A stretch of DNA of 33,009 nucleotides from assembly GCA_014379205.1 (NCBI GenBank), contig JACMME010000015.1, positions 1 to 33,009 of the forward strand, given 5' to 3'. The DNA comes from Gemmatimonadaceae bacterium (lineage in GTDB: Bacteria; Gemmatimonadota; Gemmatimonadetes; Gemmatimonadales; Gemmatimonadaceae). The notes beneath the pieces are model-generated. The model was not told where the DNA came from. It did not search any database and worked only from the letters and a program-made list of their open reading frames with translations. The translations under genes and the position numbers were made by a program. Below are positions 21,297-33,009 of the stretch, piece by piece. Within the stretch, counting starts at the first letter, position 1. The number at the start of each line of letters is the position of its first letter.

Positions 21297-24089
21297 TTGA
21301 TAAAGCTGCGAGTGAACGACCTGGCGGGTGAGTTCGGCGTCTCCAACGACGAGCTGCTTAATCTTCTCCGTCAGATGGATGTGCCGGTTCGAAGCCATCT
21401 GAGCGAGATCTCGGACGATCAAGTCGCACGTTTGCGCGCGCGCTGGGAACGCGAGAAGCGTCTGCGTGCCGAGAAGCCGGCGGCCACGCCTGCGCGCCGC
21501 CGTCGGTCGACGGCGGCTGCGCCTGCTCCGTCTCCCAAGCCTGCCAAGCCGGCCGTTATTGAACCTGAAACACCCGCTGAGCCGGCCGCGGCTACGGGCG
21601 CCAAAATTCGGCGCAGGCGTGCCGTGGATGTCGCGGCAGCGGCAACACATGCGGCCGAGGTAGAGGCTGCAGCATTTGCGGACGCTGCCGCCAGCAGTCC
21701 AGCTCTGGCGGAGAGCCCGCCGGTTCCTGGTATCGACGCTGAGCAGCCATCGCCCGGCGCGTACTCTGCTGCCGCGGCAATGGAGACACGTGAGAAGCAG
21801 GTTCCTGCGGCAGTCACCGTTGCGGACACGCCTCCTCTAAATGAGACGGCCGAAGCGTCCGTGGCAGTGGAGCAGGCCGCACGTCCCATCCCTCGTCCGC
21901 AGACGCCGCCTTCAGGAAGCGCCGGAGCGTACACAGCTGTACCGCCCCGGCGCCCCACGCCGGTGAGTCGCGACTGGCAGTCTCCACGCGCTCCCTCCAG
22001 TGGTCAGCGTCCGACACCGGTTGCCTCAGGCGTGCCATTCACGTCACCTCGCCCCATCGCAACCGGAGTACCCGGCGGATCGAGCGGCGGCCCTGTTGGC
22101 GGAGCAGCAGGAGCCGCGGCTGGGCGTCGCGACGACAAGCGTGGCGGCAAGCGCAGAAAGAAACGCGGATCCGTGGATCAGGAAGCGGTGACGGCGAACA
22201 TCTCCAAGACCATGACTGCCATGCGTGGGGTCACTGGACGTCGTGTACCGCGGCGCGACGATGTTGAGGCACGCGAGGAAATGGAGGCCCAGCGCGCCGA
22301 GATGATTGAGCGCGAAAAAAAGACGGTTCACGTCAACGAGTTCATCACGGTCAGCGAGCTTGCGGAAACGCTCAAGATATCCGCGACCGAGATCGTCGGG
22401 TTCGCGTTCAAGAATCTGGGCTTGATGGTGACGATCAACCAGCGACTCGACTTCGACCAGATCGAATTGATTGCGGGCGAGTTCGGCTTTCGAGCGGTGC
22501 GGGAGGCGGAATACTCCATCGAGGCGAATGAGCCGGAGACCGATGCGAAGGAGGACCTGGTGTGGCGACCTCCTGTCGTCACGATCATGGGCCACGTCGA
22601 TCATGGCAAAACGTCGCTTCTCGATTACATCCGCAAGGCGAACGTGGTCGCCGGTGAGGCAGGCGGAATTACTCAGCACATCGGTGCATATCACGTCACG
22701 CTGGCGAATGGTCGGCATATAACGTTTCTGGATACGCCCGGCCACGAAGCCTTCACAGCGATGCGAGCTCGCGGCGCACAGGTGACCGACATTGTGGTTC
22801 TGGTCGTGGCCGCCGACGATCAAGTGATGCCGCAGACTGTAGAAGCCATTTCTCACGCCAAGAATGCGGGCGTACCGATGATCGTGGCGATCAACAAGAT
22901 CGATCTGCCATCGGCGAACATCGCCAAGGTAAAACAGGACATGTTGCAGCATGGCGTTGTGCTGGAGGAGTTCGGCGGAAGTACGCTTTCGACGCCAATA
23001 TCGGCCAAGAAGGGAACCAACGTGTCCGAGCTGCTCGAGCAACTCCTGCTTCAGGCCGAAATTCTGGATCTCAAGGCGAATCCGAAGCGACGCGCTTCAG
23101 GTGCCGTTATCGAGGCCCAGCTCGACCCAGGCAAGGGAGCGGTGGCTACCGTACTGGTGCAGAACGGGACGCTGCGAGTAGGCGATGACTTCATCTGCGG
23201 ACTTTTCTCGGGTCGCGTCCGCGCCCTGCTGGACGAGCGCGGCAAGCCTGTGAAGGAAGCCGGACCGGCGATTCCAGTGCAGGTGCTCGGCCTCACGGGG
23301 ACGCCGATGGCAGGGGATCAATTCCTGGTTGTGGAGGATGCCACCGAAGCGCGCGAGATCGCACAACGGCGTGAGCGGCTCGATCGCGAGGCCAAAAGCC
23401 GCCGCACGAGCAGAGGCATCGTATCGCTCGAGGATTTCATGTCGCAGACGGCGGCCGGAGAGCGTCGCACTCTGAAGCTGCTCATCAAGGCCGACCAGGG
23501 CGGACCGGCCGAGGCGCTCGCGGATTCGCTCGGGCAGCTTTCGAATCAGGAAGTGTCAGTCGACGTTATTCAGCGTGGCGTCGGAGCCGTAACGGAGAGC
23601 GACATTCTGCTCGCGAAGGCATCCGGAGCGATCATCATCGGCTTCCACGTTCGCCCAGATACCAAGGCGCGGGCCGTCGCTGAACGGGAAGGAGTGGACA
23701 TCAAGTTGTATCGCGTCATCTACGAAGCGGTGGCCGACGTGCGCGCAGCGCTGGAAGGCATGCTGCGTCCCGAGGAGCGTGAAGTGATCGCCGGGGAGGC
23801 GGAGGTGCGCGAGTTGTTCCGAGTTCCAAAAATCGGCGTGATTGCTGGTTGCTCCGTTCGAAACGGAGTTATCAACCGCCAGAATCGCGTGCGTGTCATC
23901 CGGGACGGAGTCGAAGTCTATGATGGTTCTATTGGCTCACTCCGCCGCTTCAAGGACGACGTTCGTGAAGTTCGTGATGGGTTCGAGTGTGGCATTGGAA
24001 TCGACAACTTCAATGACATCAAGGTCGGTGACATAATCGAGAGCTACCGCAAGGAAGAGGTGGCGCGAACGCTGCAGCCGAATACATAA
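21297..24089 (+). CDS. infB: Translation initiation factor IF-2
   Basis: A 930-residue GTPase that brings fMet-tRNA to the 30S subunit and promotes subunit joining. The IF2_N domain is at the start ([21 protein letters not shown]), followed by a long Ala/Pro/Arg-rich linker of about 250 residues with low complexity. A second IF2_N-like region ([19 protein letters not shown]) follows. The G domain has GHVDHGKT at 432-439, DTPGHEAF near 479 and NKIDLP near 533. The beta-barrel and C-terminal fMet-tRNA-binding domains follow to the end. The start is TTG at 21297, with AGGAGG 5 nt upstream. The linker length and composition are usual for high-GC bacteria. ylxP begins 9 nt after the stop. Confidence 0.96.
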
Positions 24090-31988: not shown

Positions 31989-32110
31989 AACGTGCTTTCA
32001 ATTTGGCATGTCAACCCATCAACGATACCGAGACAATTACACCTGCCAGAGCTGATTTTTTTGGGTGTCCACAAGTTTGAGTCGGCAAGTTAACAATGGA
32101 GATGGTACGC
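31989..32110. other. Intergenic region between fhs and ridA
   Basis: 122 bases with no gene. TTGGCA (32003-32008) is a possible -35 for ridA-selD, but no good -10 lies 16-18 nt away. A run of seven T (32056-32062) lacks a proper stem in front, so I do not call a terminator. ACACC (about 32039) and GGTGT (about 32064) form an inverted repeat around it. Confidence 0.4.
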
Positions 32111-32491
32111 ATGCAGATCATCAAGACTGGGGACGCCCCGGCAGCGATTGGCCCTTATTCACAGGGCATCGTGGCAAATGGGTTTCTATACACGGCCGGG
32201 CAGATAGGTCTGGATCCCGAGTCTGGTAAAATGGTCGACGGTGATTGCGTTGCGCAGACGGAGCGCGTTCTCAAGAATCTGGCGGCGATATTGGAGAAAG
32301 CCGGCACGAGTTGGGAGAGTGTGGTCAAGACGACAGTATACCTGCTCGACCTGAGTGATTTTTCCCAGGTCAACGAGGTATATGGACGTGTTCTCGGCTC
32401 CTCTCGTCCGGCGCGATCAACTGTGCAGGTGGCTGCATTACCTCGCGGGGCGTTGGTGGAGATCGACGCCGTAGCGGTTGTAACCGGATGA
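32111..32491 (+). CDS. ridA: RidA-family reactive enamine/imine deaminase
   Basis: A 126-residue YjgF/YER057c/UK114 protein that hydrolyses reactive 2-aminoacrylate-type enamines released by PLP enzymes. The N-terminus IIKTGDAPAAIGPYSQG, FLYTAGQIGLDPESG, QTERVLKNLAAILEKAG, VVKTTVYLLDLSDF and the C-terminal SRPARSTVQVAALPRGALVEID contain the family's Arg and Glu active-site positions. The start at 32111 has GGAG 8 nt upstream and gives the usual N-terminus; an ATG at 32096 adds five residues and overlaps that site. Its TGA overlaps the selD start as ATGA. Confidence 0.93.
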   Translation: MQIIKTGDAPAAIGPYSQGIVANGFLYTAGQIGLDPESGKMVDGDCVAQTERVLKNLAAILEKAGTSWESVVKTTVYLLDLSDFSQVNEVYGRVLGSSRPARSTVQVAALPRGALVEIDAVAVVTG

Positions 32492-33009
32492 CTTCCATTG
32501 CGGCATCGGGATCGAATACCCGCGAAGAAATTTTCCGTCTTACCGCGTTCGCGCGGTGCGCTGGTTGAGCGTCAAAAATGGGTCCGGGTGACCTTTCTCG
32601 TGTGTTGGCACCACTCCCGCATCGCGCCGATCCCAGACTTCTCGTGGGACGGGAGACCTTCGATGATGCCGGGGTTTTCGCACTGTCTGACAGTCTCGCG
32701 CTGGTTCAGACAGTCGACTTCTTCGCGCCCATCGTTGACGATCCATATGCATTCGGGCAGATCGCCGCCGCGAACGCATTGTCCGACGTGTATGCCATGG
32801 GAGGCGAGCCGCTGACAGCGCTCAACATTGCCGCCTTTCCCGAGAGCAGGCTCCCGCTCGCGATCCTCACGGAGATTTTGCGGGGCGGGCAGGACAAGGT
32901 GCACGAAGCGGGCGCGGTCATCGTAGGTGGCCATACGATTATTGACGAGGAGCTCAAGTATGGTCTCGCCGTCACGGGACGCGTCGATCCCCGGCACATC
33001 CTGACAAAC
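32488..33009 (+). CDS. selD: Selenide, water dikinase (selenophosphate synthetase), selenocysteine-containing, 3'-truncated by window end
   Basis: The 5' 174 codons of selD, which makes selenophosphate from selenide and ATP, the selenium donor for selenocysteine and selenouridine. Reading from ATG 32488, the frame has one TGA, codon 27 (32566-32568), and then stays open to the window edge. Before it the protein reads FRLTAFARCAG, and after it ASKMGPGDLSRVL. E. coli SelD has AGCGCK at this place, with catalytic Cys17 and Lys20; here these are Sec27 and Lys30, while the second Cys is Ser29. Later family blocks are LLVGRETFDDAGVF, TVDFFAPIVDDPYAFGQIAA, ALSDVYAMGGEPLTALNI and VIVGGHTI. Many SelD proteins are known selenoproteins. 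The start overlaps the ridA stop (ATGA). An ATG at 32578 would remove the catalytic site. The C-terminal half lies beyond the window. Confidence 0.93.
32581..32593 (+). promoter_or_regulatory. Candidate bacterial SECIS hairpin in selD
   Basis: GGTC (32581-32584), loop CGGGT (32585-32589) and GACC (32590-32593) form a small stem inside the coding sequence. An additional G-U pair and weaker A-T pairs may extend it. The loop begins 16 nt after the TGA and carries G residues, within the distance range expected for a bacterial SECIS read by SelB. The lower stem is weak by eye. Confidence 0.5.

Follow-up and report, generated by a model that had tools for sequence, protein, structure and literature searches.

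selD of a Gemmatimonadaceae bacterium is a predicted selenoprotein gene in a clade with both Sec and Cys forms

The selD locus at a contig end

The window, a stretch of 33,009 nucleotides, is an entire contig (G000:C233:1-33009, here C233) of a genome assembly in 339 contigs that is 91.76% complete, and it therefore ends inside a gene, selD. As read from the open reading frames, the selD frame starts at an ATG at position 32488 of the forward strand and runs to the contig end at 33009, open throughout except for a TGA codon at 32566 to 32568, as the sequence-only reading of the locus had it. The contig closes with 141 bases (32869 to 33009, forward strand) that recur without any difference at the start of contig C31, where the remainder of selD (C31:142-678) and the gene encoding tRNA-Sec follow. 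Joined in this way, selD encodes 352 residues, of which the window (32488 to 33009) holds the first 174, and the frame is intact across both contigs. With Cys entered for the residue at the TGA, the 5' half matched the SelD profile TIGR00476 at 222.6 bits (E value, 6.6e-66; cutoff, 125 bits), and the half on C31 matched model positions 116 to 306 of the same profile at 217.2 bits, again above the cutoff of 125.

Directly upstream of selD lies a RidA-family gene (32096 to 32491, forward strand; TIGR00004, 166.2 bits; cutoff, 106.25), the TGA stop codon of which (32489 to 32491) overlaps the selD start codon. The terminal stop codon of selD on C31 (within C31:676-685), located 6 nucleotides ahead of the tRNA-Sec gene, is a TGA as well, so that UGA would serve as both a Sec codon and a stop codon within selD. 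Downstream of selD and selC, in a region of C31 about 0.7 kb after murI (L128:2866-5096), we noted two EutM-like microcompartment shell genes, together with a gene resembling those for acetylating acetaldehyde dehydrogenases. Elsewhere in the window, ARAGORN called an unusual tRNA whose anticodon has just two bases (23785 to 23877); the call, probably a false positive, is situated inside a large open reading frame (21297 to 24089) that, to judge from its sequence, looks like infB.

In a phmmer alignment with E. coli SelD (3u0o), residue 27 of the selD product, encoded by the TGA, falls on the first Cys of the AGCGCK motif, Ser29 falls on the second Cys, and Lys30 falls on the Lys; in the E. 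coli protein these residues are Cys17 (the catalytic Cys), Cys19, and Lys20, respectively. The two features by which a SelD is recognized, a catalytic Cys or Sec and a conserved Lys, thus have their counterparts here in the predicted selenocysteine codon at the Cys17 position (32566 to 32568, forward strand) and in Lys30 at the Lys20 position, and the pattern that marks a Sec-containing SelD, a UGA aligned with a Cys of homologues and a frame that is kept behind it, is present too. The flanks of the codon (FRLTAFARCAG before it and ASKMGPGDLSRVL after it) match on both sides. What the sequence-only reading had said of the codon, namely, that it occupies the place of the catalytic Cys of E. coli SelD, that the catalytic Lys is retained, and that conserved protein sequence surrounds it, is borne out by these alignments. 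Its caution that standard gene calling might miss the N-terminus or start at ATG 32578 agrees with the open reading frame that opens at that ATG. Gene callers that take UGA as a stop would cut SelD at its catalytic residue, and automated annotation may consequently yield a truncated SelD and overlook the Sec trait.

Native Aquifex SelD contains Sec. With the SelD of Aquifex aeolicus (2yye and 2zod), a Sec-containing SelD/SPS2, the protein studied here shares a CAASK-type motif, the conserved Lys, and the absence of the second Cys, and its predicted Sec codon has the position, that of E. coli Cys17, known from Sec-containing SelD/SPS2; it differs from known Sec-containing SelD proteins in belonging to a Gemmatimonadota clade, in having selC directly behind its gene, and in the short SECIS-like hairpin described below. 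According to passages of two earlier papers, Sec-containing SelD has long been known (PMC4561486, PMC1794560), and one of these passages gives Sec in 19% of the SelD genes of 223 reference prokaryote genomes, always at this position (PMC4561486). That the SelD of the window is a predicted selenoprotein of this long-known type is well supported.

The codon among relatives and a candidate SECIS hairpin

SelD scored over the cutoff in 286 of 395 sampled genomes of the phylum, and the best named matches were Gemmatimonadota assemblies, with up to 82% identity, which points to that phylum, and likely to Gemmatimonadaceae, as the probable home of the organism. Across 111 loci covering the site, the window itself (L015) being one of those with TGA, the site is occupied by TGA in 68, TGC in 37, and TGT in 6, with no other codon present; two further loci do not reach the site. 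Since only these three codons occur, we excluded a chance TGA, in keeping with the earlier argument that a chance stop or a pseudogene would be unlikely at precisely this codon. Within the family, 63 genomes have a SelD among the matches listed: the match contains a single TGA in 40 of them and no TGA in the other 23, all of which carry TGC or TGT when the codon itself is read.

For a closer comparison, we used a clade set of 64 SelD loci from Gemmatimonadota that cover residues 20 to 150 and are 60% or more identical to the SelD of the window; removal of 11 loci that repeated another over the 45 nucleotides before and the 60 nucleotides after the codon left 53 distinct sequences, 28 with TGA and 25 with a Cys codon (21 TGC and 4 TGT). 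A protein tree was made from these 53 SelD sequences; 31 of its 50 inner branches are starred as well supported, the window contributes only a half-filled row, and L057 sits on a long branch. On this tree, 10 changes between Sec and Cys are required, at least 8 of which are forced by starred branches. Exchange between Sec and Cys in SelD thus looks unusually frequent in the Gemmatimonadota family of the window, as far as can be judged from these sequences, and for change on this scale (at least 8 on well-supported SelD branches), we found no description in the open-licence PMC literature. Nor did we find a paper there on the selenoproteins of Gemmatimonadota: the string "Gemmatimonad-" is absent from the main texts of PMC5029168, PMC4561486, PMC1794560, PMC12013277, PMC13188914, and PMC5330540, and the passages of PMC8318568 and PMC8938466 that name Gemmatimonadota do so only in other contexts.

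Comparison of the TGA genes with the Cys genes brought out a candidate bacterial SECIS element (bSECIS) at 32581 to 32593 of the forward strand, with a stem formed by GGUC (32581 to 32584) and GACC (32590 to 32593) around the loop CGGGU (32585 to 32589). The corresponding pattern, GGTC-N5-GACC from +13 to +25 downstream of the codon, is found in 28/28 TGA genes versus 3/25 Cys genes. At the level of single codons, the glycine codon of the hairpin is GGT in all 28 TGA genes versus 5 of the 25 Cys genes, and the aspartate codon is GAC in all 28 versus 19 of the 25. When the comparison is confined to eight phylogenetically independent pairs, taken on starred branches, hairpin and Sec coincide in a mean of 7.4 pairs and the opposite association never appears (median P = 0.016); four control synonymous sites show no link with Sec, one of them (codon 13) tending in the opposite direction. 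One Cys gene, L021, has the hairpin exactly as in the window and sits beside Sec relatives on the tree, which looks like a recent change from Sec to Cys with a left-over SECIS. With its close Sec and Cys versions, the clade offers a natural experiment on the joint loss of a Sec codon and its SECIS.

The bSECIS model, as outlined in part of PMC13188914, asks for an upper stem of 4 to 16 bp, a loop of 3 to 9 nucleotides with a G in the first two loop positions, a distance of 16 to 37 nucleotides from the UGA, and an energy of -7.5 kcal/mol or lower. The selD hairpin resembles it in lying just after the UGA with a spacing of 16 nucleotides and in having a stem of 4 to 5 bp (GGUC/GACC) and a 5-nucleotide loop (CGGGU) with a G at position 2; it differs in being weaker than the energy limit (approximately -5.1 kcal/mol for the hairpin alone) and in not being the minimum-energy fold. 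The minimum-energy folds of the 45 to 70 nucleotides after the UGA are other structures and are no better than shuffled sequences (z scores of -0.56, 0.63, and 0.83); that of the first 45 nucleotides reaches -10.8 kcal/mol, but with a structure unlike the candidate hairpin. Because the hairpin pairs are invariant across the 28 TGA genes, covariation gives the hairpin no support, and a search with Rfam at gathering thresholds gave no match in the 33,009-nucleotide window. We thus discarded energy folding by itself as a means of detecting the SECIS, its result not rising above shuffles; the element is visible only in the comparison of TGA and Cys genes.

Sec machinery and the reading of the TGA codon

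The tRNA-Sec gene (selC; anticodon UCA) is located at 685 to 781 of C31, just after selD (685 to 777 for the match of 73.5 bits; cutoff, 47). Of 19 named Gemmatimonadota loci, 17 show the same order, selD followed by the tRNA-Sec gene, and the remaining 2 end before that point. Another contig carries selB (C144:3497-5338; 343.5 bits; cutoff, 242.25). The sequence-only reading had expected SelA, SelB, and tRNA-Sec in the organism and had held that a genome with no selB or selC would speak against it; our search located both of these genes, and for the third, selA, the incomplete, 91.76%-complete assembly gave no match, either by profile (with a positive E. coli control) or with the protein of a relative as the query (a search run without a positive control). 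The simplest reading would be that the missing selA reflects an assembly gap. Of the 91 family genomes, 64 have a selA match over the cutoff and 63 a selD match; among the matches listed, SelD occurs without a full selA in the genome of the window, G170, G183, and G211 (the last with a 21-bit match only), and selA occurs without SelD in G031, G123, G175, G307, and G343.

Searching the genome of the window with PF02627, we found an AhpD-like gene (C293:15280-15810 plus the stop codon; L226:2281-2814) with a TGA at L226:2530 in a CDYU motif, a second predicted selenoprotein gene. With this gene in view, we rejected SelD as the sole selenoprotein of the genome. Like the AhpD-like CxxU selenoproteins of the TIGR01926/PF02627 type, its product combines a CxxU motif with the AhpD core domain (TIGR00778, 55.7 bits; cutoff, 27.8), and it differs from those families in scoring under the specific cutoffs of NF053654 (75.7 of 310 bits) and TIGR01926 (67.2 of 81.8 bits). 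AhpD-like selenoproteins with CxxU are listed in a portion of PMC13188914. Among nine relatives of the gene in the family (50 to 58% identity), five combine a TGA with a hairpin whose stem is CCGCCUU/AAGGCGG and whose loop is GGC or GUC; the other four have TGC and lack the stem. In the genome of the window, the hairpin, 7 bp around GGC with one G-U pair, is what folding predicts (-12.7 kcal/mol; z score, -1.94). With two genes that combine a UGA with a hairpin, plus selB and selC, Sec decoding in the source organism is very likely, as judged from its genome.

We put the probability at roughly 95% that the TGA at 32566 to 32568 is a Sec codon, so that read-through of selD would give a selenophosphate synthetase of 352 residues whose catalytic position is occupied by Sec. 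The claim that selD is itself a selenoprotein gene is thus backed by the alternation of Sec and Cys, by tRNA-Sec and selB, by the UGA-linked hairpin, and by a second redox gene with a TGA. Three other explanations were weighed against it. One is that the TGA arose by nonsense mutation, leaving selD a pseudogene, or through a mistake in sequencing or assembly that hides a true Cys codon. This might be suspected in a metagenome-type assembly of 339 contigs, the more so as relatives with TGC or TGT exist, but the occurrence of TGA at this site in numerous other genomes, both inside and outside the phylum (68/111 loci), a frame that is intact on both contigs, and a hairpin that accompanies the TGA make this extremely improbable. 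We give just as little credence to decoding of the UGA as some other amino acid by a changed code or plain read-through, with no involvement of selenium: tRNA-Sec (UCA) and selB are present, the adjoining ridA stops on a TGA that overlaps the start of selD, and relatives that do not have the TGA invariably have a Cys codon in its place. What this explanation can draw on is a frame that is open apart from the TGA and the merely predicted status of the Sec in this SelD.

The failure of both the profile and the relative's protein to find selA would fit a Sec system in decay, in which selA has been lost and selD is no longer read through the UGA. Set against this are the assembly completeness of 91.8%, the absence of single sel genes from other assemblies of the family as well (SelD-only and selA-only cases), and the finding that selB and selC are intact, as are the hairpin of selD and the second TGA gene (AhpD-like) together with its own hairpin; we consider such decay very unlikely, if a little less so than an error or a different amino acid. 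If the TGA is indeed read as Sec, the hairpin at 32581 to 32593 would recruit SelB with Sec-tRNA-Sec, derived from the selC gene directly downstream of selD, to the UGA. Together with Lys30, the Sec residue of the enzyme would contribute to the formation of selenophosphate from selenide and ATP, and SelA, the gene for which was not found in this genome, would use the selenophosphate to make Sec on tRNA-Sec. This would close a loop in which SelD is required for its own synthesis.

Retention of the Sec trait in the family

The same clade also constitutes a natural experiment on what retains selenocysteine in a genome. Selenouridine as the use of SelD in the family is unsupported, since the selenouridine synthase profile TIGR03167 scored over its cutoff in 0 of 91 family genomes, with weak matches (24.8 bits or less) in 21; among 14 controls, this profile matched 7, including E. 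coli, and exceeded its cutoff in 1. Sec-containing FdhA, taken as a molybdopterin-enzyme match with one TGA (the context DSCNRTUHAPS was read in 12 of 25 genomes), is found among the matches listed in at least 7 of 40 genomes with Sec-SelD versus at least 15 of 23 genomes with Cys-SelD (Fisher P = 0.00025, a value that ignores kinship). AhpD-like matches with a TGA show no such difference (16/40 Sec-SelD and 9/23 Cys-SelD genomes, among the matches listed). They occur in 26 genomes among the matches listed, a single TGA being taken as Sec-like, and the codon itself was read in the genome of the window and in G177, G025, G253, G395, G196, G113 (one of two), G080, and G245.

Neither a Sec-FdhA nor a TGA-containing AhpD-like gene is among the matches listed in 20 of the 40 Sec-SelD genomes and 4 of the 23 Cys-SelD genomes. 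If complete and decoding, those four Cys-SelD genomes must hold another selenoprotein, beyond the FdhA and AhpD-like families. For the twenty Sec-SelD genomes, a closed loop, with SelD serving its own synthesis, is possible when judged on the FdhA and AhpD-like families. That SelD is the last selenoprotein in some Gemmatimonadaceae, the Sec system mainly serving its own feeder enzyme, strikes us as a tentative and rather unlikely proposition. The genome of the window is not of this type, because it contains the AhpD-like TGA gene.

A blunt search for shared read-through TGA codons near sel genes was abandoned as a source of candidates, most of its output being other-frame noise; among the matches listed, it gave one lead, an AhpD-like gene with a CPFU motif in G080 and G245. 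The SelD proteins of these two genomes (L196 and L197) are of the E. coli type, with Cys (AGCGCK), unlike those of the clade of the window, and their genes lie close to selA, tRNA-Sec, and the AhpD-like gene with the TGA in its CPFU motif.
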